Source of the DNA: Prosopocoilus inquinatus
Lineage: Eukaryota; Arthropoda; Insecta; Coleoptera; Lucanidae
Direction: 5' to 3'
Assembly (NCBI GenBank): GCA_036172665.1
Contig: CM069877.1
Span: 19,493,001-19,557,000 of the forward strand
Length of the DNA: 64,000 nt
Shown here: positions 2,786 through 44,770 of the stretch, in pieces
Numbering within the stretch: position 1 is the stretch's first letter
Layout: every line of letters begins with the position of its first letter
Translations under genes and position numbers: made by a program
Notes under the pieces: generated by a model
What the model was told of the DNA's origin: nothing
Databases searched by the model: none
What the model saw: the letters and a program-made list of their open reading frames with translations, nothing else

Positions 2786-4317
2786 TTTTATAATAAGTTT
2801 ATTTATTTGTGATTTCAGACATTTTGATTTTTCTTAGTTAATTTGTAAAAAATATTAAAGAATCATATTTCAAGTTGTTTCTAGATATGTAGCTTCAAAA
2901 TGATTTGTAAATAAGTAAATCCTTCTCATTTGTTTTCATAGGTAATTGGAATTATTTAACAAAATTTAAAACAATGATAAAAATATTTTACAGCGCGTTT
3001 CTGTACGTTGATTATAGAGAAGTGATTATAACTCACAAGTTATCAATCTTAAGATACTAAAATATAGTATGATTGGAAAGCTCGCAGAAAAGGCTATACA
3101 TATAGGCTATAATTAAGGATACGATTTAAATAAGTACACGACATCGTTGCAGTAGCGCCGTAAAAATGTATCGAACAGGCACATTGTGTAATGGGACGGT
3201 GAATATTATTTACGCCATTCTTACTATCTGATGCAATGTGGCCGAGGTCGAGGTACAGTTGGTCGACTAATTACTCTGAAAACCTTTACACATTTAAACA
3301 AGAAGACTTGATTGTATAACTGTAATTTTTTATTGCGGCAATATTGCTCTGTTTTTTGTTATTCTGAGTAACACCATTGCTGTAGCGGCGTTAATTGTCT
3401 CCGCAGTCCTCGCGTTTGTTTATATATTACGGTCTAATATTTTATATTGCCCGCTTCACTAGAATTTGAACCGCGCACAATATATTTCCCCGACCCATAG
3501 CTATAATATACGGGCTGTCCCATTTGAAAAAAATTAATAATTTTACAATATACAAATTAAATTGTGGCGTTTGTTAATAACCGCTAGATTTTTAAAATGT
3601 TGAATACATAAAATAAAAGTAGAGAGGTTTAGAAATATGTTGGTCTAAGGCTGATTGTCGCATCATTAAAACTGATAATTTCGCAGCGGATCAAATATAA
3701 CCCATTTTGTGCATAAAATTAAAAATAACTCGGTAAATACCAAAAATAAGTTAATATAATTTATATCATTTTTTATTGTTTCTTCAAGAGCTAACCGAAA
3801 CTGTAATAAAATGTATAGTATTTCATTTAAAAAATAATTTGTTAGATTCGGTAAATGGACAACCTGTATATTTGATAATAATTTTAAATTAGGCGGAATG
3901 AAAACTTCTTGATAAAATGAATTTAAAGTGGCGTTTTCGCACTTTTTCAAAGGTTTGGGACCTCTGTATATTTCTTTTTGTTAGAATAAGATATTTCATT
4001 ATTTTTAAGTGTATTTCATATGTTGAGAATGGTTTTATGTATTAAATTTTATTTGAGTGTATATTTCTCATGTTGATAATTTTGGCCGCTGATTCGGTCT
4101 ACCACTGTGCAGTGCAAGTGGAACTCGCTATGAGGTATTTTGTTAGAACAACTACGGAATCTAGATTGAAACTATTTGAAACCAGATTCAAACTTTTAAG
4201 CAAAAGAAAGCAGCTTATATCTCTGATTCCAATGAATCTCGAAGAAAGCAGCTTGGGATTTTGGACATGCAGGATTGGTATGGTAATAGTGCCAACAGGT
4301 GACAACGCTGCGGATTG
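2786..4317. other. AT-rich stretch upstream of BTBD9, nothing recognised
   Basis: No open frame here has recognisable motifs, and no clear terminal inverted repeat or RNA gene was seen. The frames at 3666-3950 (minus) and 4070-4318 (plus) are short and low in complexity. Distal regulatory sequence for the downstream gene would fit the position but is not shown. Confidence 0.4.
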
Positions 4318-33318: not shown

Positions 33319-34804
33319 GTGTCAAAAGTGGAAATTTCCAACAATGAGGCTGTACGAGTTAAAAGTGTATTTGAAATTGAAGACGCAGCAGCTCTACTGA
33401 AAGAAGTGAAAGAAAAAATGGAAAAAGTTAACGAAAATATGAAATTAGAAATGCAACAAGTAAGAAAACAAATGGAAAGTATTGTGGCGAGCCAGTCAGC
33501 ACTACGTCACACTGACGGCGTCAAGAAGTCGGTTCGCTATTATGCGTCATCGGCCATCACGCCACCGGGGCCTACATCGGACAGACTAGACTTTTCCAGA
33601 GTTATAAAATTCGAGAGGGCAGCAAAGGAAAAGAAAATCGCCCGGGGTTTACTCAGGAGTCAGTCGAATTCTAACAGCGATCGTCGAAGTTAGATTTTAG
33701 TGTGAAAATAAATTGTTACAAATAAATTAGTTCGTAAGCAGTATTAAATTACGGTTAAGTTTTTACCGAGTGTTTTATTCGTTTAAATAAATAAATTTAA
33801 ACCCTAGAAACGTAACAGTATGGAAATGAAAATGAAAAGTTTAAAAACATCTAAATATAGAAAATATGAAGTTGCAAATTGATGAAAAGTTCGAAGGTCT
33901 TAAAAACAAATGTGACGGGAAAATTGAGGAAAAAATTGATGGTGTCCGAAATCAATTTGATAGTGCAATTAAGGATTTGAAATTTGAATTCGACGATAAA
34001 CTTGACGAGAAATTTGGTGGAATGAAAATTCAGTTCCAGGATAAACTAGAAGACTTAGCTAAACACCTGCATAAAGTGGAACTTGGGAGCACTATTACAC
34101 CATCATCTGGATCGTCAAGTCAGAAATTGAAACCTCCAAAATTTGACGGCAACTTGCCATGGTCTACTTTCATACGACAATTTAAAATTGCTGCCGATGT
34201 AAATGGTTGGAATGACTGCGATAAAGCTGCAGCACTAGTTTTGGCCCTGCGGGGTTCAGCGTTGAGTGCGCTACAGTCAATTCCTCATTTTGACCAATTA
34301 GTAGAAAATTTGGACATGCGTTTTGGTGAAGCACACATGAAGCAACTCCTCACTATCCAACTGAAAACTCGTACCCAGAAGAATGGTGAGTCACTTCAAG
34401 AGTTTGAACTCGACATTGAGAGATGGGTGCGCATGGCATATGGAGATTTCTTGCCTGAATCAATTTTTAATCGTTTGGCCATCTAAGCATTCATCGACGG
34501 CATTAAAGATCAAGAAATGCAGCAAGTATTGCGATTGGGTAACTTCTCCAAATGCACAGATGTACTGGCCCGTGCACTGGAGTTCGAGGCGACCAAGCAA
34601 GCTTCTAAAAGCCTAGTACGAGTGCGAGGGGTGCAAGCAGTCGATGGCAACAATCTTGAGAAAAGGCTGAAACAGCTGGAAGAGAAGATGGCTAGTCCTA
34701 GGCGAATCATAACTTGTTGGAACTGTGGCAAACCAGTACATGTAAGTTTCAACTGTAGGCGCAAACGAGCGCGCCAAGACGATGACAGTGAGTCTTTAAA
34801 CTAA
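33319..34804 (+). pseudogene. Gag of gypsy family 2, split and stopped
   Basis: The first piece (33319-33482) encodes a Lys/Glu-rich helical start (LLKEVKEKMEKVNENMKLEM). After the inserted solo LTR, 33866-34804 gives a coiled-coil stretch, the retrotransposon gag core (PPKFDGNLPWSTFIRQFKIA, ALVLALRGSA, GESLQEFELDIERW), an in-frame TAA at 34484-34486, and a zinc knuckle CWNCGKPVHVSFNC near 34718. The core is clearly related to the gag of the element at 38237-44770, but the two differ at most positions, so they are separate families. It is non-functional. Confidence 0.8.
33483..33815 (+). repeat. Solo LTR of the macrodomain gypsy family, 333 bp
   Basis: It starts TGTGGCGAGCC and ends CCCTAGAAACGTAA, aligning along its whole length with the 342-bp LTRs at 38237 and 44429 (shared TCATCGGCCATCACGCCACC and TAACAGCG-TCGAAGTTAG). 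AAGTAT on the left and CAGTAT on the right are a 6-bp duplication with one change. A solo LTR implies that a full element once inserted here and recombined out. Confidence 0.85.
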
Positions 34805-34869: not shown

Positions 34870-35985
34870 TCCAGGATAAGGAACTTTGAATTCTTAAAGC
34901 CCATTTTCCAAAGCGTCCAGTTGGCGGTTTTACAGAAAGTAACCATCTTAGTGGTTGATGATCCGTAGGAATGGTAACTTCAGCTCCTCTGAAGTAAATT
35001 CGAAACTTTTCAACTGCCTAAACCATACAAAGTGCTTCTCGTTCTGTAGTCGAAAAGTTTCTTTCAGAAGATGTTAATAAGCGACTTGCGTATTCTATTG
35101 GTCGTTCGTTGTGGCCCTCCCCCTGGAGTAAGACTGCTCCCAGTGCGTAAGAACTTGCATCTGTACGCAAAATGTAAGGCTGTGACTGATCAGCTTGGAC
35201 CAAAATTGGGAATGTCGTCAGCTTTTCTTTCAAAGTTTCGAACGAACATAGTTCTTCTTCACCAAACCGAAACATTAATTTTTTTTAAGCAGGTTTGTTA
35301 ATGGTCTGGATATCTTTGCAAATTCAGGTATGAACTTACGATACCATGAACACATTTGAACAAAACTGTGAACATGTTTCAGGCTACTTGGTGGTTGTAA
35401 GTCTTTTATCGCGGCTACTTTTTTAGGGTCAGCTTCTATACCGTTTGGAGTAATCACGTGGCCAAGGTATGTAAAACTGTTTCATACAAACACACATTTT
35501 TCGCGTCGCGCACCTAAATTGAACAGTTTAAGTCTCTCGAACTCTGCTTTTACGTCGTGTAAATGTTTTTCAAATGTTTCGGATAATATTAAAATATCAT
35601 CCAGATAGGCGAAGACGGCTCTATCACCTAAACCTGCATGGAATCTGTCCATAAGCCTCACGAACGTTACCGGTGAATTTTTCAACCCAAAAGGCATGCG
35701 GTTAAAGCGGAATTTTCCAAAAGGTGTGACAAAACATGCTTTATCTTTGTCTTCTTCAGCTATTGGAACAAAATCCAGACTGTAAATCGATCGTTGACAT
35801 GAAAGGCGTACGTTTAGCGATGTGAAGCAAATCTTCGATTCTAGGCATTCGAAAACATAATACATAAACGAAGTTTTCCGTCTTTCTTCGGCACGAGGAC
35901 GACCGGACTAGCCCACGGGGATTCGCATTCTTCAATAATTCCAGAAGCTAGTAACTTCTCGAGTTCGCTCTGCTTCAAACAGCGA
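34870..35985 (-). pseudogene. Gypsy pol fragment (reverse transcriptase and RNase H), broken
   Basis: Reading right to left on the minus strand: the RT entry region ([20 protein letters not shown], about 35985-35880), FGKFRFNRMPFGLKNSP, the catalytic YLDD near 35605, the thumb (WYRKFIPEFAKISRPLTNLL), RNase H start (FGEEELCSFETLKEKL, RTDASSYALGAVLLQGE) and TDHQPLRWLL near 34950. Protein frames change near 35870, 35460 and 35275, and stops interrupt it. No protease or integrase remains. It abuts the plus-strand gag remnant head to head, and it may or may not be the same family. Confidence 0.85.
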
Positions 35986-38236: not shown

Positions 38237-38578
38237 TGTGGCGAGCCGCTCAGTGCTGCGTCACGCTGAGGGCGTCAGGAGGTCGGTTCGCTGTTGTGCG
38301 TCATCGGCCATCACGCCACCGGGGCCTACACCGGGGTCACATCGAACAGATTGGAATCTTCCCGCATAGAGAGTTCCAGACGGCGGCGAATGATATAAAA
38401 TCGCCCCGGTTTGACTCACCAGTCAGTCGAATTCTAACAGCGAACGTCGAAGTTAGATTTTAGTGTGAAAATAAATTGTAACAAATAAATTAGTTTTTAA
38501 GCTTTATTAAATTACGGTTAAGTTTTTATCGAGTGTTTTATTCGTTTAAATAAATAAACAAAAACCCTAGAAACGCAA
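38237..38578 (+). repeat. 5' LTR of the macrodomain gypsy element
   Basis: It begins TGTGGCGAGCC and ends AAACGCAA. A TATAAAA at 38394-38400 lies 31 bp before a TCAGT initiator (38423-38427), and an AGTTAG resembling a downstream promoter element sits at about +27. U3 is therefore roughly 38237-38424. AATAAA motifs follow in R/U5. Just outside, GTGGTGTCGGTGTGCGGG (from 38581) is the candidate primer-binding site; I could not assign the tRNA. Confidence 0.9.
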
Positions 38579-38679
38579 CAGTGGTGTCGGTGTGCGGGTT
38601 TGTGCAAATAAATAAACAATTTAAAGTAAATTAAATTTAATCAGATTATTAAATAAGTACAGTATAGGAAAAAAAAATA

Positions 38680-40188
38680 ATGGCTACGAGAAAAGTGTTG
38701 TTGAAAGACTTAAAAGTGGCCGAATTAAAAACCGAATTGGAAGAACGAGAGTTAGAAACCTGTGGTTTGAAAGGCGCACTTCAACAGCGTCTCCGATCCG
38801 ATTTGTTGACAGCTGGTGAAAATCCAGAGACGTTCCTTTTCGAAATTTCGTGTGGTCCCGCCGATTTTAATAAAATCTTGAAGGATGAATTTCGAGAACA
38901 ATCCAGAAATTTCAAGGACGAACTTCAAGAACAATCCAGAAATTTGGACGCGAAGTTTCTAGAACAATCTGGAAATTTAGAGAAAAAACTTCTAGAACAA
39001 TCTGGAAATTTCAAGGACGAGCTTCGAGAACAATCTGTAAACTTCAAAGACGAGTTGCGAACTAAATTAATGGAACAATCCAGAAATTTAGAGGAGAAGC
39101 TTCTAGAACAAGCTGGAAATTTCGACAAATTACAGAATAAATTGTTGGAACAATCTAGAGACTTAGACGAGAAATTTCGAGAGCAATCCAGAAATTTCGA
39201 CGAGAAATTTCTAGAACAAACAAAAGGACTTGAAGATCAACTAGTGGTAAAAATATCGGAAGAAACAAGGAACTTGCAAGAAAATGTGGAAGAAATAATA
39301 TTCCAGCAGGATAATAAAATCAAAAATCTGGAACAAATCATGGCGGGGTTGCGAGTGTTCGGGGATCAGCCACTAGTAGAAACACTAGAAAATAATGAAA
39401 CCCGAATTGTGGAAGGACCAACAGAAAATTCGAAATTGAAAGTAAAACCACCAACGTTCGATGGAAAGTCTTCTTGGCCCAACTACTTCAAACAGTTCGA
39501 AGCAGAAGCAAAGGCGAACAGATGGACGGCCAGCGAAAAAGCCACTTCGTTAATTGTGGCCTTGAGAGGGGACGCTATCGATGTGCTACAGACGATGCCG
39601 CAAGAGGAACAAGAAGACTTCGACAAGCTTGTGAATAGGATGGAAATGCGTTACGGACAGGCCCATCTGACCGAGGTATACCATGCGCAGTTGAGGAATC
39701 GCTGTCAGAAATCCGGAGAAAGTCTTCAGGAATTCGAAGCGGACGTAGCGCGGCTGGCCCAGTTGGCATATCCCACAGCTCCTGTTGAATTCCTCAAATG
39801 TTTGACGGTGCAGACCTTCATAGATGGAATCCGTGACCCAGACAACCAGCAGGCATTGAGAATGACCCATCCGAAGACGTCCAAGAACGCATTGGCTTAT
39901 GCCTTGGAATTTGAAGCGGCGAGACGAGTTTCAAGAGGGCATGTCAAGGTGCGAGCGGCTATGGACTTCCAAGAGGAGGAAGAAGAAGGGTCCGCCAACG
40001 CCAAGGTGGGATCTGCTAATAAGGGGCAGTCCAAGGAATATGCCACCGCCGAGGATGTTCGCCGCATTGTGGAACAGGTCCTCAAACAGAAGAAGCCGCT
40101 GGTGTGTTGGAATTGCCAGGAGGAAGGACATGTTCGTAGGCGATGTCCAAAACCCAGACAGGATCCAAGGAAGCCACAGTTAAACTAA
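38680..40188 (+). CDS. gag: Gag: SAP-like motif, 11-residue repeat coiled coil, gag core, CCHC knuckle (502 aa)
   Basis: This is the structural protein of the retrotransposon particle. Residues about 9-43 (LKVAELKTELEERELETCGL, then KGALQQRL) fit a SAP motif, a DNA/chromatin-binding helix pair found in SAF-A/B and PIAS proteins. Residues about 60-215 are a run of 11-residue units of the type EQSRNF-KDELR, which predicts a long hendecad coiled coil; the DNA shows matching 33-bp repeats. The gag core (about 245-375; PPTFDGKSSWPNYFKQFEAE, ALRGDAIDVLQ, GESLQEFEADVARLA) and the zinc knuckle CWNCQEEGHVRRRC (476-489) follow. The ATG at 38680 is the first after the leader. The 3' end overlaps pol by 46 nt in the -1 frame; no textbook slippery heptamer was found. 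The frame is intact. Confidence 0.93.
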   Translation: MATRKVLLKDLKVAELKTELEERELETCGLKGALQQRLRSDLLTAGENPETFLFEISCGPADFNKILKDEFREQSRNFKDELQEQSRNLDAKFLEQSGNLEKKLLEQSGNFKDELREQSVNFKDELRTKLMEQSRNLEEKLLEQAGNFDKLQNKLLEQSRDLDEKFREQSRNFDEKFLEQTKGLEDQLVVKISEETRNLQENVEEIIFQQDNKIKNLEQIMAGLRVFGDQPLVETLENNETRIVEGPTENSKLKVKPPTFDGKSSWPNYFKQFEAEAKANRWTASEKATSLIVALRGDAIDVLQTMPQEEQEDFDKLVNRMEMRYGQAHLTEVYHAQLRNRCQKSGESLQEFEADVARLAQLAYPTAPVEFLKCLTVQTFIDGIRDPDNQQALRMTHPKTSKNALAYALEFEAARRVSRGHVKVRAAMDFQEEEEEGSANAKVGSANKGQSKEYATAEDVRRIVEQVLKQKKPLVCWNCQEEGHVRRRCPKPRQDPRKPQLN

Positions 40189-42458
40189 GCCGGGTCGGTG
40201 CAGAGGGGCAAACGTCGACCCGTATTCAAAGGCCCCCAAAGACGAAAGCCAACCAAGTAATATCCCTACGGCAGTTAACCAGCAGTGTCTTCGTGGATGT
40301 CACCATTGATGACATTCCTCACACCATGTTATTGGATACGGGTGCGACGAAGACCATCCTAAGGCCCGACGTCATTAAGTCATCTGGACGCACCGAGCCG
40401 ACCAAGTGGAAACTGAAAACTGCAACTGGAACATCAGCAACTGTCCACGGTGAAGTAGAGGTTATCATCACCATTGGTTCAACTCCAATAAAACACCGTG
40501 CACTGGTGGCAGATATAGAGGACGAGGCAATTTTGGGCATGGACGTCATGTGTGCCCACGGGTTCCAATTGGACTTAAAGCGTGGCGTGATGGCGGTCAA
40601 TAATGAGGAGTTGGTTCTACATCAACGAGGGGACGTGGCCGCTCGAGTAGACCTCGCTGAAGACGTTGTATTACCCAGCAGGACTGACGTTATCGTCGAC
40701 GCAAAACTGGACGGTGTTTTTCAAGATGGGCAAGTCATTATGGTTGAACCTAATACTGATGATCAAAGGATTGGAAGAGGAGTCCACGTTGGGAAAATGT
40801 TGTTGACGGCGAAGAAGGAAGTACCTGTCCGCCTGATGAACGTCAATTGTTTCTCTGTCAATATCAAGAAAGGAACAATCTTGGGAAGCTGCACCATGGT
40901 GTCCTCCATCTCCCGGCAACTTGAAACAAACGTGCCAGAAGCGAAAGTCCCAAAGAAATTATGGGAAATGGTTATGTCAACAGCCCAGGAATTGACTCCA
41001 GACCAGAAGACAAAAGCAAAGAATCTGATCGGCTGCTATCAAGATGTATTTGAGGTAGAAAATGGATCCAAGGGAAGACCTGATGTCGTGAAACACAAAA
41101 TAGAGACTGGAGAAGAAAGACCTATCCGTCAAGCTCCAAGGCGATTACCGTTGGCGAAGCGTGAGGAAGCGGAACGCATTATTCGCGAGATGGAAAAGGA
41201 TAATGTAATAGAACCATCAAGCAGCCCGTGGGCGTCACTAGTAGTGCTTGTGAAGAAGAAGAAGGATGGGTCCACCAGGTTCTGTGTAGACTACCGGTTA
41301 CTCAATAATGTCACCAAGAAGGACAGCTATCCTTTGCCCCGGATTGATGATACCCTGGACACCCTGGCCGGCTCAAAGATCTTCTCAACTTTGGACTTAA
41401 AGAGTGGATATTGGCAAGTGGAGCTGGCGCCCGAAGATCGAGAAAAGACGGCGTTTTCCATTGGTATGGGTCTGTGGCAGTTCACAGTGATGCCATTCGG
41501 ATTATGTAATGCCCCAGCGACATTCGAGAGGTTAATGGAGACGGTTCTGAAAGGTCTGTCCTGGACAACGTGCATGGTGTACCTTGATGACATAATTGTC
41601 GTGGGAAAGACGTTCGACGACCACCTAAGGAACCTGGAAGGAGTGTTCCAGCGGCTTCGCGGAGCTGGCCTAAAGCTTAGCCTCAAGAAGTGTCACCTAT
41701 TCCAGAAGGAAGTGAATTACCTGGGGCACATTGTTAATGGAAATGGAATCGCCGTGGACCCTGTGAAGATTCAGGTGGTGAAAGACTGGCCAACTCCCAG
41801 AAATAAACACCAAATAAGGAGTTTCCTTGGCCTGTGCACTTACTATCGGCGCTACGTTCCTGGATTTGCAGACATTGCTAAGCCGTTAACAAAACTCACT
41901 GAAGAAGGTCGTCCATTTGAATGGGACCAACAGTGTCAAATTGGCTTTGAACAACTAAAGCAGTACTTGATTAGTGCTCCTATTCTGAGTTATCCTCTCC
42001 CGGAAGGAAAATTCGTCGTGGACACAGATGCTAGCAACGTTGGGATTGGTGGCGTACTCTCCCAGATACAAGAGGAGCAAGAGAAGGTGATCGGCTACTT
42101 CAGTAAAGTCCTATCAAAGCCGGAACGAAACTATTGCGTCACAAGAAGGGAATTGCTAGCCGTCGTAAAAACGATAGAACACTTCTACAAGTACTTGTAT
42201 GGTAGACGCTTCCTGCTGAGGACCGACCACGCCGCTCTAAAATGGCTTCTCCGTTTCAAGAACCCAGAAGGGCAAGTTGCACGATGGATCGAACGACTTC
42301 AGGAGTACGATTTTGAAATTCAGCATCGGGCAGGAACTAGCCATCGAAATGCCGATGCTCTGTCGAGAAGACCCTGTGCCGAAGACTGTAAGCACTGTAG
42401 TCGTTTGGACGAGAAAATAGCCACGACTGCGAGGACAGCCATTGTTGATGACAAATGA
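40143..42458 (+). CDS. pol: Pol part 1: protease, reverse transcriptase, RNase H (771 aa)
   Basis: The aspartic protease active site is LLDTGATKTIL (Asp65). The reverse transcriptase shows FCVDYRLLNNVTKKDSYPLP, STLDLKSGYWQV, TVMPFGLCNAPATFERLM and the catalytic YLDD (480-483; 41580-41591), then the thumb LGLCTYYRRYVPGFADIAKP. RNase H has VVDTDASNVGIGGVLSQ, RRELLAVV and TDHAALKWLL, ending with AGTSHRNADALSRRP. It is probably made as a Gag-Pol fusion by -1 frameshifting, since pol lies in the -1 frame and overlaps gag. An in-frame TGA at 42456-42458 closes this frame just after the RNase H C-terminal CxxC-type segment. The integrase continues in the same frame beyond it. Confidence 0.93.
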   Translation: MSKTQTGSKEATVKLSRVGAEGQTSTRIQRPPKTKANQVISLRQLTSSVFVDVTIDDIPHTMLLDTGATKTILRPDVIKSSGRTEPTKWKLKTATGTSATVHGEVEVIITIGSTPIKHRALVADIEDEAILGMDVMCAHGFQLDLKRGVMAVNNEELVLHQRGDVAARVDLAEDVVLPSRTDVIVDAKLDGVFQDGQVIMVEPNTDDQRIGRGVHVGKMLLTAKKEVPVRLMNVNCFSVNIKKGTILGSCTMVSSISRQLETNVPEAKVPKKLWEMVMSTAQELTPDQKTKAKNLIGCYQDVFEVENGSKGRPDVVKHKIETGEERPIRQAPRRLPLAKREEAERIIREMEKDNVIEPSSSPWASLVVLVKKKKDGSTRFCVDYRLLNNVTKKDSYPLPRIDDTLDTLAGSKIFSTLDLKSGYWQVELAPEDREKTAFSIGMGLWQFTVMPFGLCNAPATFERLMETVLKGLSWTTCMVYLDDIIVVGKTFDDHLRNLEGVFQRLRGAGLKLSLKKCHLFQKEVNYLGHIVNGNGIAVDPVKIQVVKDWPTPRNKHQIRSFLGLCTYYRRYVPGFADIAKPLTKLTEEGRPFEWDQQCQIGFEQLKQYLISAPILSYPLPEGKFVVDTDASNVGIGGVLSQIQEEQEKVIGYFSKVLSKPERNYCVTRRELLAVVKTIEHFYKYLYGRRFLLRTDHAALKWLLRFKNPEGQVARWIERLQEYDFEIQHRAGTSHRNADALSRRPCAEDCKHCSRLDEKIATTARTAIVDDK

Positions 42459-43003
42459 CAAGGCGAAGAACTGCGAAGAGACCAGGAGAACGACCCGGAT
42501 TTGAAATTAGTGCTAGAATGGAAAAGCAGGGACGCGAGGCCTACCTGGGAAGAGGTAGCACCATGTGCACCGTCCGTAAAATCATACTGGGCGCAGTGGG
42601 ACTCCATAGTGTTGGATCGCGGTCTTCTGAGACGAAGCATAGAGAATCAGGAAGGCATGGAACAGAAGACACAGTTACTGATCCCCAAGAATAGGGTGCC
42701 AGAAGTTCTGAGGGAACTTCACGATGGAACTTCCGGAGGGCATCTGGGAGTTAAGAAGACTATGGAGAAGGTGCGCGAAAGATTTTACTGGGTGAACTGC
42801 AAGGAAGACGTGAAGGATTGGTGCAGAAAGTGTACAGTCTGCGCAGCCAGTAACGGTCCCCACAGGCGGGGTAAGGCTCCCATGAGACAGTACAACGTTG
42901 GAAGCCCTTTTGAGAGAGTTGCCATCGATGTAGCCGGCCCGTTTCCAGAAACGAATGGTGGAAACAAGTACATCGTCGTGGTAATGGACTACTTTAGCAA
43001 AGT
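42459..43003 (+). pseudogene. pol: Pol part 2: integrase N-terminal half, cut off by stop and frameshift
   Basis: In the same frame as the upstream pol, after the TGA, this segment encodes the integrase zinc-binding region (LHDGTSGGHLGVKKTM, then CRKCTVCAASNGPHRRGKAP; HHCC) and the first catalytic Asp of the DDE triad in IDVAGPFPE (codon 42927-42929). The frame is lost near 43001, immediately after DYFSK. Most gypsy integrases have a Trp-Pro dipeptide there, and the reading resumes in another frame with a few residues missing. A small deletion is the simplest reading. Confidence 0.8.
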
Positions 43004-44461
43004 GAAGCTTACGCCCTACCTAACCAAGAGGCAGTCACTATTGCGGAAGTCCTTGTCAGGGAATGGATCAGTCGGTATGGTGCACCTATGGAACTGCATT
43101 CAGACCAAGGAAGGAACTTTGAATCGGCCTTGTTCGAGAACGTGTGTACTCTGCTCGGCGTACGAAAAACTAGAACAACTGCACTCCACCCACAGTCGGA
43201 CGGAATGGTGGAAAGGTTCAACAGAACCATCAACCGACATTTGTCCAAGGTCGTTTCCAATCATCAGAGGGACTGGGACACGTGCATCCCCCTGTTTCTA
43301 ATGGCATACCGCTCATCTGTTCATGAGACAACAGGGGAGACTCCCGCGAAAGTGGTATTCGGGCGAGAGCCGAGACTGCCCTGCTACCTGAAGTTTGGTG
43401 TGAAGCCTGGCGAAGTCTCTGCCGACGAAGATTACGTGAGCAAATTACGCAGGAAAATGGATGATATCCACAACCAAGTGCGTCACAATATACAGACGGC
43501 CAGCGATCGGATGAAGGAGCACTATGACATCAACGCTCAACACGGGGGATACCAACCTGGAGCACTGGTCTGGCTTTATAACCCCCAAAGACGTCGAGGC
43601 CTCTCCCCAAAATTACAGACCTCTTGGGAAGGTCCTTACAAAGTGGTGAAACGGATCAACGACGTCGTTTACCGCATCAAGAAGGTCCCCCATGGCAAAC
43701 CCAAAGTAATCCACTTCAACCGGATGGCCCCTTACCATGGAGAAGCAGATGAAGGGACAGTACAAAGGGCGCAAGTTTCCGAAGTGAACTTCGAAACCTT
43801 CATGTCTCATCACGCCGAAGGAAGCAAGGCACGGTTTGGAGTGACCACGGAGAAGCAACAAGATCTCTTTAAAGTGCCACTGGAGTACAGTCTGGCTCAC
43901 TGCGTAGCAGAAGACCTGAAAATGTCCAAAGGAATCGCTCAGGTGTTTAGGAAGAAATTTGGCCAAATCGAGGAGCTACGAAGACAGCATCCCATGGTAG
44001 GCAAGAGCTTGCAGATCATTGATTCGACGGCAGATCGGAGGCGCCACGTGCATTATTTAGTCACTAAGAAGACATCAAGCGGTAAACCTGACTATCAAAG
44101 TATGTGGAGAGCCCTATATAGCCTGAGGAGACAGCTAATAGAGAACCATCAGATGAAGTTGGCCATCCCCAAATTGGGCTGCGGATTGGACGGACTAGAC
44201 TGGAGAGTAATACGAAGCATGCTGGAAGTCATCTTTCACAGAACGGGAATTGAAGTCCTAGTCTGCAGCCATCACCCACAGGCAACAGTCAGCAACAGCA
44301 AAACCGTAGACTGCTACTTCTTCCAGACGGGAAATTGCAAGAATGGGCCAGCTTGTAGATTCCGACATCCTCCTTCAAGACTATCACCAGGAACATTTCG
44401 AGACGAAACGTTTTTAAGAAGGGGGCAGTGTGGCGAGCCGCTCAGTGCTGCGTCACGCTGA
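43004..44461 (+). CDS. pol: Integrase C-terminal half fused to TARG1-like macrodomain and CCCH zinc finger
   Basis: Numbered from the Met at 43088 (457 codons to the stop), the frame holds the second catalytic Asp in LHSDQGRNF (Asp6), the Glu in GMVERFNRTI (Glu42), the gypsy C-terminal block SWEGPYKVVKRINDVVYRI (about 179-197), a linker, a macrodomain (about 245-397) and a CCCH finger (409-427). There is no chromodomain. The frame stays open from integrase through to a TGA at 44459-44461, 31 bp inside the 3' LTR. The extra 200 or so residues lie where envelope genes occur in some gypsy elements, but they have no signal peptide or membrane segment. Separate production of the extension is not excluded, since an internal promoter or protease cleavage could release it. 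Confidence 0.9.
   Translation, partial: EAYALPNQEAVTIAEVLVREWISRYGAPMELHSDQGRNFESALFENVCTLLGVRKTRTTALHPQSDGMVERFNRTINRHLSKVVSNHQRDWDTCIPLFLMAYRSSVHETTGETPAKVVFGREPRLPCYLKFGVKPGEVSADEDYVSKLRRKMDDIHNQVRHNIQTASDRMKEHYDINAQHGGYQPGALVWLYNPQRRRGLSPKLQTSWEGPYKVVKRINDVVYRIKKVPHGKPKVIHFNRMAPYHGEADEGTVQRAQVSEVNFETFMSHHAEGSKARFGVTTEKQQDLFKVPLEYSLAHCVAEDLKMSKGIAQVFRKKFGQIEELRRQHPMVGKSLQIIDSTADRRRHVHYLVTKKTSSGKPDYQSMWRALYSLRRQLIENHQMKLAIPKLGCGLDGLDWRVIRSMLEVIFHRTGIEVLVCSHHPQATVSNSKTVDCYFFQTGNCKNGPACRFRHPPSRLSPGTFRDETFLRRGQCGEPLSAASR
43820..44278 (+). other. Macrodomain of TARG1/OARD1 type within the retrotransposon polyprotein
   Basis: The segment contains YSLAHCVAEDLKMSKGIAQV, FRKKFG, VHYLVTKK (Lys327, codon 44066) and AIPKLGCGLDGLDW (Asp368, codon 44189). 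In human TARG1/OARD1 the equivalent SLAHC-SEDC-MGAGIA, LITKK and IGCGLD motifs carry catalytic Lys84 and Asp125, used to remove ADP-ribose from glutamate/aspartate and O-acyl-ADP-ribose. Both residues are kept here. The start DLF and the length of about 150 residues also match. The assignment to the TARG1 branch rather than MacroD or viral macrodomains rests on these motifs. Enzymatic activity is inferred. Confidence 0.88.
44312..44368 (+). other. CCCH zinc finger at the end of the polyprotein
   Basis: Residues 409-427 read CYFFQTGNCKNGPACRFRH, spacing C-X7-C-X5-C-X3-H, the standard RNA-binding CCCH finger. A single finger at the extreme C-terminus could tether the adjoining macrodomain to RNA or provide packaging contacts. 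It is intact in this copy. Confidence 0.88.
44416..44428 (+). promoter_or_regulatory. Polypurine tract before the 3' LTR
   Basis: AAGAAGGGGGCAG directly precedes the TGTGGCG start of the 3' LTR, the expected position for priming plus-strand DNA synthesis. It also codes for part of the polyprotein tail (RRGQ). Confidence 0.75.
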
Positions 44462-44770
44462 GGGCGTCAGGAGGTCGGTTCGCTGTTGTGCGTCATCGGC
44501 CATCACGCCACCGGGGCCTACACCGGGGTCACATCGAACAGATTGGAATCTTCCCGCATAGAGAGTTCCAGACGGCGGCGAATGATATAAAATCGCCCCG
44601 GTTTGACTCACCAGTCAGTCAAATTCTAACAGCGAACGTCGAAGTTAGATTTTAGTGTGAAAATAAATTGTAACAAATAAATTAGTTTTTAAGCTTTATT
44701 AAATTACGGTTAAGTTTTTATCGAGTGTTTTATTCGTTTAAATAAATAAACAAAAACCCTAGAAACGCAA
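44429..44770 (+). repeat. 3' LTR of the macrodomain gypsy element
   Basis: It matches the 5' LTR over 342 bp, with one visible difference in the segment CAGTCRAATTC (G on the left copy, A here). The first 33 bp also supply the last codons and the stop of the upstream polyprotein frame. Confidence 0.93.

Follow-up and report, generated by a model that had tools for sequence, protein, structure and literature searches.

A beetle-borne Ty3/gypsy lineage with a TARG1-type macrodomain and a CCCH finger behind its integrase, a candidate ADP-ribosyl hydrolase

Orchid Ty3/gypsy elements are reported to carry an AlkB-type N6-methyladenosine (m6A) RNA demethylase, with activity shown in vitro, in a separate additional open reading frame (ORF; PMC9289625), and macro-domain ORFs are reported for fish epsilon-like endogenous retroviruses (Basta et al. 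2009, cited in PMC4977317). The animal macrodomain enzyme TARG1 takes ADP-ribose off Glu and Asp (PMC11102865). Thymine in single-stranded DNA is also reported as a TARG1 substrate, Lys84 of TARG1 being required (PMC8501950), and uracil in RNA is reported to be de-ADP-ribosylated by TARG1 and by two of three Drosophila paralogues (PMC13036486). RNA binding by TARG1 is described as well (PMC5928194), and DNA ADP-ribosylation at single-stranded telomeric DNA is reported to be set by PARP1 and TARG1, with unremoved marks impeding replication (PMC11102865). Here we describe a Ty3/gypsy element of the lucanid beetle Prosopocoilus inquinatus, located in a stretch of 64,000 nucleotides (contig CM069877.1, positions 19,493,001 to 19,557,000; hereafter the window), in which the integrase is followed, in the same frame, by a TARG1-type macrodomain and a CCCH zinc finger. 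On the basis of the comparisons below, we give a probability of about 0.6 to the reading that a beetle-borne gypsy lineage captured an insect-type TARG1 and that this domain would be an active ADP-ribosyl hydrolase in the integrase/reverse transcriptase complex, stripping host PARP marks.

The frame that carries this tail is open from 42998 to 44461 (487 amino acids; plus strand, as for all features below unless indicated) and stops 33 bases inside the 3' long terminal repeat (LTR; 44429..44770), the first 33 bases of which code for its last residues and the stop. Profile matches place the rest of the integrase core, with the motifs HSDQG and VERFNRT, and the C-terminal SH3-like domain at 42998..43732 (PF00665, 0.0002, under the cut-off; C-terminal domain PF22938, 2.1e-12). 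They are followed by a linker delimited by alignment (43733..43849), the macrodomain, assigned by sequence and fold (43850..44269), the CCCH finger (44300..44368; PF00642, 8.1e-06 and 26.1 bits against a cut-off of 20.5; CPSF4 finger, 2e-08) and a putative polypurine tract, AAGAAGGGGGCAG (44416..44428), whose role is deduced from its position and which reads in frame as RRGQ of the C-terminal LRRGQC. A preliminary description of the locus had started the frame at 43004, inside the open frame, and had read it as running uninterrupted from the integrase through macrodomain and finger into the 3' LTR. This holds from 42998 on but not upstream, where the copy is broken by a TGA in frame (42456-42458) and by a change of frame inside the integrase core near 43000, so that its pol is not intact.

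Among solved structures, the best match to the tail was human OARD1/TARG1 (2.1e-29, tail residues 10-146), and TARG1 supplied the first eight chains in one fold search and the first six entries in another. With TARG1 as top match by both sequence and fold, the earlier assignment to a TARG1-like macrodomain stands, and the domain was not placed outright outside the macrodomain family. The general Pfam Macro model PF01661 gave no match to the window at 1e-3, and a PF01661 label is found in the precomputed annotation of the element relative P0050 and of some non-element proteins (e.g. P0062 and P0075). The NCBIfam DarG model matched the window at 1.6e-11, with 44.1 bits against an equivalog cut-off of 250. 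Two further matches covered the macrodomain region only, one in viral contigs (35% identity, query residues 280-433) and one a TARG1-like domain at 3317-3724 of a contig from a Clostridia metagenome-assembled genome (40% identity, query residues 283-421). The Lys of the TKK motif (codon 44066-44068) and the Asp of GCGLD (codon 44189-44191) align, with an offset of 6, with K84 and D125 of TARG1. These are the Lys327 and Asp368, counted from 43088, that had been proposed as a catalytic pair, and both residues are present.

The longhorn Aromia moschata accounts for 47 of the 65 proteins that a search with the tail returned (46 element sequences plus the host gene P0053), and the rest are from elements of Exocentrus, Harmonia and Diabrotica and from host genes of several insects. 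A second search, with a relative that has the whole tail (P0002) as query, yielded 1979 matches among 7985 scored candidates, and the set of 228 proteins analysed here draws on the best 120. By a profile built in this analysis, 126 of the 228 carry the macrodomain: 73 element sequences (47 from Aromia, eight of these assigned by hand, and 26 others including the window) and 53 non-element ones. Of the 26, those with a named source come from Exocentrus, Molorchus, Harmonia, Diabrotica, Callosobruchus and an assembly of the mildew Erysiphe pulchra, the remainder being metagenome contigs; the Erysiphe sequence is probably beetle contamination. According to a taxonomy look-up, Aromia, Harmonia and Callosobruchus represent three families of Cucujiformia. 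The domain is thus present in many copies and in several beetle genera, which is not what a private, one-copy insertion would give. The preliminary description had also called for gypsy copies with reverse transcriptase and macrodomain in one element, and three metagenome relatives (P0113, P0117 and P0119) carry both in one frame each. The window copy does not, because of the TGA and the frame change mentioned above, and its broken pol is a defect of this copy that leaves the lineage itself unaffected. Beside these, the metagenome protein P0061 has a TARG1-like domain with the element-type MSKGIA loop, preceded by an N-terminal Cys/His-rich stretch; the protein gave no Pfam match and may represent a second mobile or host gene family. 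In P0121, the macrodomain-CCCH element protein of the Erysiphe assembly, the frame stays open behind the finger, and this extension matches Ty3_capsid weakly.

The CCCH motif was present in 17 of the 26 non-Aromia element sequences. In four of the nine others the sequence ends early, upstream of the finger in P0116, P0118 and P0125 and within it in P0041. No CCCH match was found within 75 residues behind the macrodomain in any of the 53 non-element sequences. Domain-bearing sequences show LAPYxG before the macrodomain, and several have RDE..LRRGQC behind the finger; the ends of the domain-less relatives compared, many of which have RDEQ, stop shortly past the integrase C-domain motif V-x-H-x-x-R-L. 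The polypurine tract and the first LTR bases together encode RRGQC, which would explain this steady C-terminus. The tails of P0119, P0120, P0050 and P0095 end in VLGQNSLKEG and not in LRRGQC, perhaps the same polypurine tract read in other codons.

To get insight into the origin of the domain, we compared 75 of the 126 macrodomains in a tree (26 from elements, 22 non-Aromia and four Aromia, damaged sequences and near-copies being excluded); these came from TARG1-like searches, and other macrodomain classes are hardly represented. The element macrodomains formed one clade (100/100) with a long stem, in a bootstrap that had not fully settled, and the other sequences were insect TARG1s and further TARG1-like proteins. 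Since the element domains form a single clade, two separate captures, which we considered, are unneeded. As to the donor order, approximately unbiased (AU) tests rejected neither beetles (p-AU 0.0667) nor cockroach/grasshopper (0.118), and the best tree had aphid in this place (support 22/96). The idea that a host TARG1 was captured is retained, most simply as a single capture from an insect-type TARG1. The CCCH finger, which the preliminary description had also read as captured, may likewise come from a host gene.

As for function, the element carries its insect-type TARG1 domain and CCCH finger between the integrase C-terminal domain and the polypurine tract, and the macrodomain, if an active hydrolase as predicted, would travel with the integrase/reverse-transcription complex. 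Its targets might be ADP-ribose on the nucleic acids of the element (uracil in RNA, thymine in single-stranded complementary DNA (cDNA), ends and gaps at integration) or, as another option, on acidic residues of proteins in the complex and of adjoining chromatin, and the finger would hold the enzyme on RNA. Retroelements present genomic RNA, single-stranded cDNA and nicked or gapped integration sites. We favour an eraser in the reverse-transcription/integration complex because the substrates of TARG1 match what a retroelement offers. A narrower version, which we put forward tentatively, is that of a nucleic-acid de-ADP-ribosylase: insects would mark transposon RNA or single-stranded cDNA as a defence, and an eraser on the integrase complex, with its finger on RNA and a basic residue at position 42 gripping the backbone, would remove the mark. 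In parp-1 null Drosophila, mobile elements are reported as mostly up, gypsy types included, although several fall short of significance and the effect may be indirect (PMC7712786). The capture of the domain and its fusion to the integrase suggest that the element gains from erasing an ADP-ribose mark that the cell sets on proteins, RNA or DNA.

Conservation was assessed on 18 element sequences, dropping pairs with less than 60% overlap or fewer than eight columns. Median pairwise identity was 0.71 in the integrase (120 pairs), 0.51 in the macrodomain (153), 0.52 in the CCCH finger (120) and 0.37 in the linker (153), and fell to 0.12 (136 pairs) and 0.11 (54) in the short, hard-to-align spacers flanking the finger (10 and 15 residues in the window). 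The Lys/Asp pair was kept in 20 of the 24 readable non-Aromia element sequences (26 in all), in 42 of the 44 readable Aromia ones (47 in all) and in 48 of the 49 readable non-element ones (53 in all), where P0094 (E/D) is the exception. In the damaged Aromia sequences P0060 and P0066 the pair reads S/D. Neutral decay of the pair, which the preliminary description had named as the outcome that would speak against a function, is not seen overall, although one or both residues are altered in the four remaining non-Aromia sequences. Pocket Gly43 was present in all 26 non-Aromia element sequences. Ranked by conservation among 150 columns, K84 was 26th and D125 36th; both exceed the median, and the first places go to Gly43, a Pro and a Trp.

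Several observations weigh against the proposed function or limit it. Constraint was judged at the protein level, from identity relative to short spacers that are hard to align. The pair is changed in P0038 (R/E, Diabrotica), P0049 (K/S), P0114 (R/D) and P0117 (K/N), and no more than 14 of 24 sequences retain G121 beside the pocket. The loop has also changed in element sequences, with G41 of TARG1 replaced by S/T in 20 of 26 and A42 by R/K in 23 of 26; Arg or Lys at position 42 occurs in nine of the 53 non-element sequences. The CCCH finger is absent from P0050, P0095, P0119 and P0120. In a second Drosophila panel nine of ten elements are gypsy-type, but the false discovery rate exceeds 15% or p exceeds 0.05, and the authors consider that the effect could be indirect (PMC7712786). 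Moreover, in a tree of 70 sequences built on RNase H and integrase only, from the matches of one search, the 19 domain-bearing sequences fell within one clade of 23 (100/100). Its other members are P0123, where a remnant of the tail is left, the short gene model P0188 from Gonioctena, and P0124 and P0126, which run from protease to integrase with a clean end, lack the macrodomain and are nested inside the clade. Monophyly of the bearers was rejected (p-AU 0.000126, and 0.00547 without P0123 and P0188). On these sequences, one gain with a few losses, or replacement of the tail through recombination, would fit best, and several gains of the same tail via recombination may also have occurred. The macrodomain is an accessory part of the element, because P0123, P0124 and P0126, with reverse transcriptase through integrase, nest in the clade without it, and because of the four sequences with a changed pair.

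The same observations bear on other explanations. In some gypsy elements the place behind the integrase C-domain is taken by a chromodomain, which directs integration to modified histones, and a macrodomain there might likewise be a reader, bringing integration to ADP-ribosylated chromatin or PARP1-marked breaks by binding them. We consider this unlikely: P0038 and P0114 have kept the macrodomain with a changed pair, and the invariant Gly43 would suit a reader, but Lys and Asp are kept in 62 of the 68 readable element sequences, beyond what binding alone should need. The conservation of the pocket is compatible with binding too, because the TARG1 mutants G43E, I44E and G123E are reported to lose ADP-ribose binding (PMC5928194). 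If the domain were instead a near-neutral hitch-hiker, spread by a successful element and now being lost, the domain-less sequences nested in the clade, the altered residues in four of 24 and the break upstream in the window copy would fit. Against this, the macrodomain is 51% identical where short spacers of the same frame reach about 12%, and the pair, the pocket Gly and the Trp stand well above the median column; we regard a passenger as very improbable.

Macrodomains of animal RNA viruses have a counter-defence role, and the eraser could be aimed at PARP-type restriction of element proteins by the host, a purpose and target different from those we favour although the chemistry overlaps. 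By analogy, the best viral fold matches (BFVD) include VP8 of Kadipiro virus (A0A8E0KJF2, 40% identity), a thrips-associated flavi-like virus (A0A7G9IR66, 32%) and a thrips-associated virga-like virus; because of these close matches, insect-linked RNA viruses seem to have taken up a TARG1-type domain too, and repeatedly. A further analogy is that ZAP/PARP13 is reported to restrict LINE-1 in human cells, its CCCH fingers being sufficient, but the PARP-like domain of ZAP itself is said to lack a catalytic residue (PMC4441479), and we regard counter-defence of this kind as rather improbable.

The remainder of the element has the organization of a Ty3/gypsy retrotransposon. Its 5' LTR (38237..38578) is identical to the 3' LTR at 341 of 342 positions, and AACTAT stands outside both LTRs at their outer edges as a candidate target-site duplication. 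Because the LTRs are nearly identical, the insertion is probably recent. The gag frame (38668..40188) encodes an N-terminal SAP domain (PF02037, 2.7e-06), a domain found in the annotation of several Aromia relatives too, and a CCHC knuckle (zf-CCHC, 1.1e-05); the domain search gave no capsid profile match in the gag of the window. Behind the SAP domain gag has a repeated EQSRNF-type stretch whose self-matches fall in many registers, the two together lying at 38668-39220. The first part of pol (40140..42458), with protease, reverse transcriptase and RNase H, overlaps gag in the -1 frame and is closed by the TGA; the N-terminal part of the integrase, comprising the H2C2 zinc domain and the start of the core, continues in the same frame from 42459 to about 43007, up to the frame change. 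The order protease, reverse transcriptase, RNase H, integrase was recovered by profiles for the CCHC knuckle, aspartyl protease, RVT_1, RNase H, H2C2, rve (below cut-off in the cut frame) and the p58 C-domain. Elsewhere in the window, an LTR-like sequence (33483-33819, 83.6% identical to the element LTR) followed by a gag-like fragment (33845-34486) marks an older relative of the family, and a minus-strand ORF (35482-35907) resembles, by eye, the reverse transcriptase of another element. In a nucleotide self-comparison of the window, the 3' part of the element recurred nowhere except in the LTRs, no second macrodomain was found, and the LTR-like sequence and the gag-like fragment behind it were the only further related pieces.

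In the open PMC literature we found no description of a gypsy integrase-TARG1-CCCH lineage, which may be catalogued in Repbase, Dfam or subscription papers outside that search; the sequences of the relatives are publicly available, most of them labelled as hypothetical or uncharacterized proteins. Both a captured eraser in a gypsy element and a macro domain in a retroelement are already known, and the integrase-TARG1-CCCH lineage appears new, with a mechanism that is plausible and unproved. It touches on the substrates of TARG1 in living animals and on ADP-ribose on RNA or DNA bases in defence. A captured, integrase-fused TARG1 with an active site mostly kept across beetle families suggests that reverse transcription or integration is under pressure from ADP-ribosylation in insects, and the lineage comprises elements that look active, elements with a changed pair and elements that lack the domain, a natural set for comparison.

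When compared with the animal ADP-ribosyl hydrolase TARG1/OARD1 (C6orf130), the window domain differs in sitting in a pol polyprotein with a CCCH finger behind it, and the loop before Gly43 reads S/T-R/K in elements, in contrast to Gly41 in 45 of the 53 non-element sequences. With Ty3/gypsy elements labelled 'transposon 412' and their relatives the element shares the LTRs, the CCHC knuckle, the order of protease, reverse transcriptase, RNase H and integrase, the H2C2 domain, the core and the p58-like C-domain; the relatives compared, however, end shortly past that C-domain, whereas in the window about 220 residues lie between it and the polypurine tract. Chromodomain gypsy elements likewise have an extra domain at the integrase C-terminus, there a reader of histone marks and here an ADP-ribose enzyme fold. 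Fish epsilon-like endogenous retroviruses also combine a macro domain, of a subtype not stated in PMC4977317, with a retroelement, but they are vertebrate retroviruses and have it in an additional ORF. The orchid elements, as described in PMC9289625, are from a plant, use a separate ORF and have no ADP-ribose enzyme, yet they too are a gypsy lineage with a captured eraser of a nucleic-acid mark.
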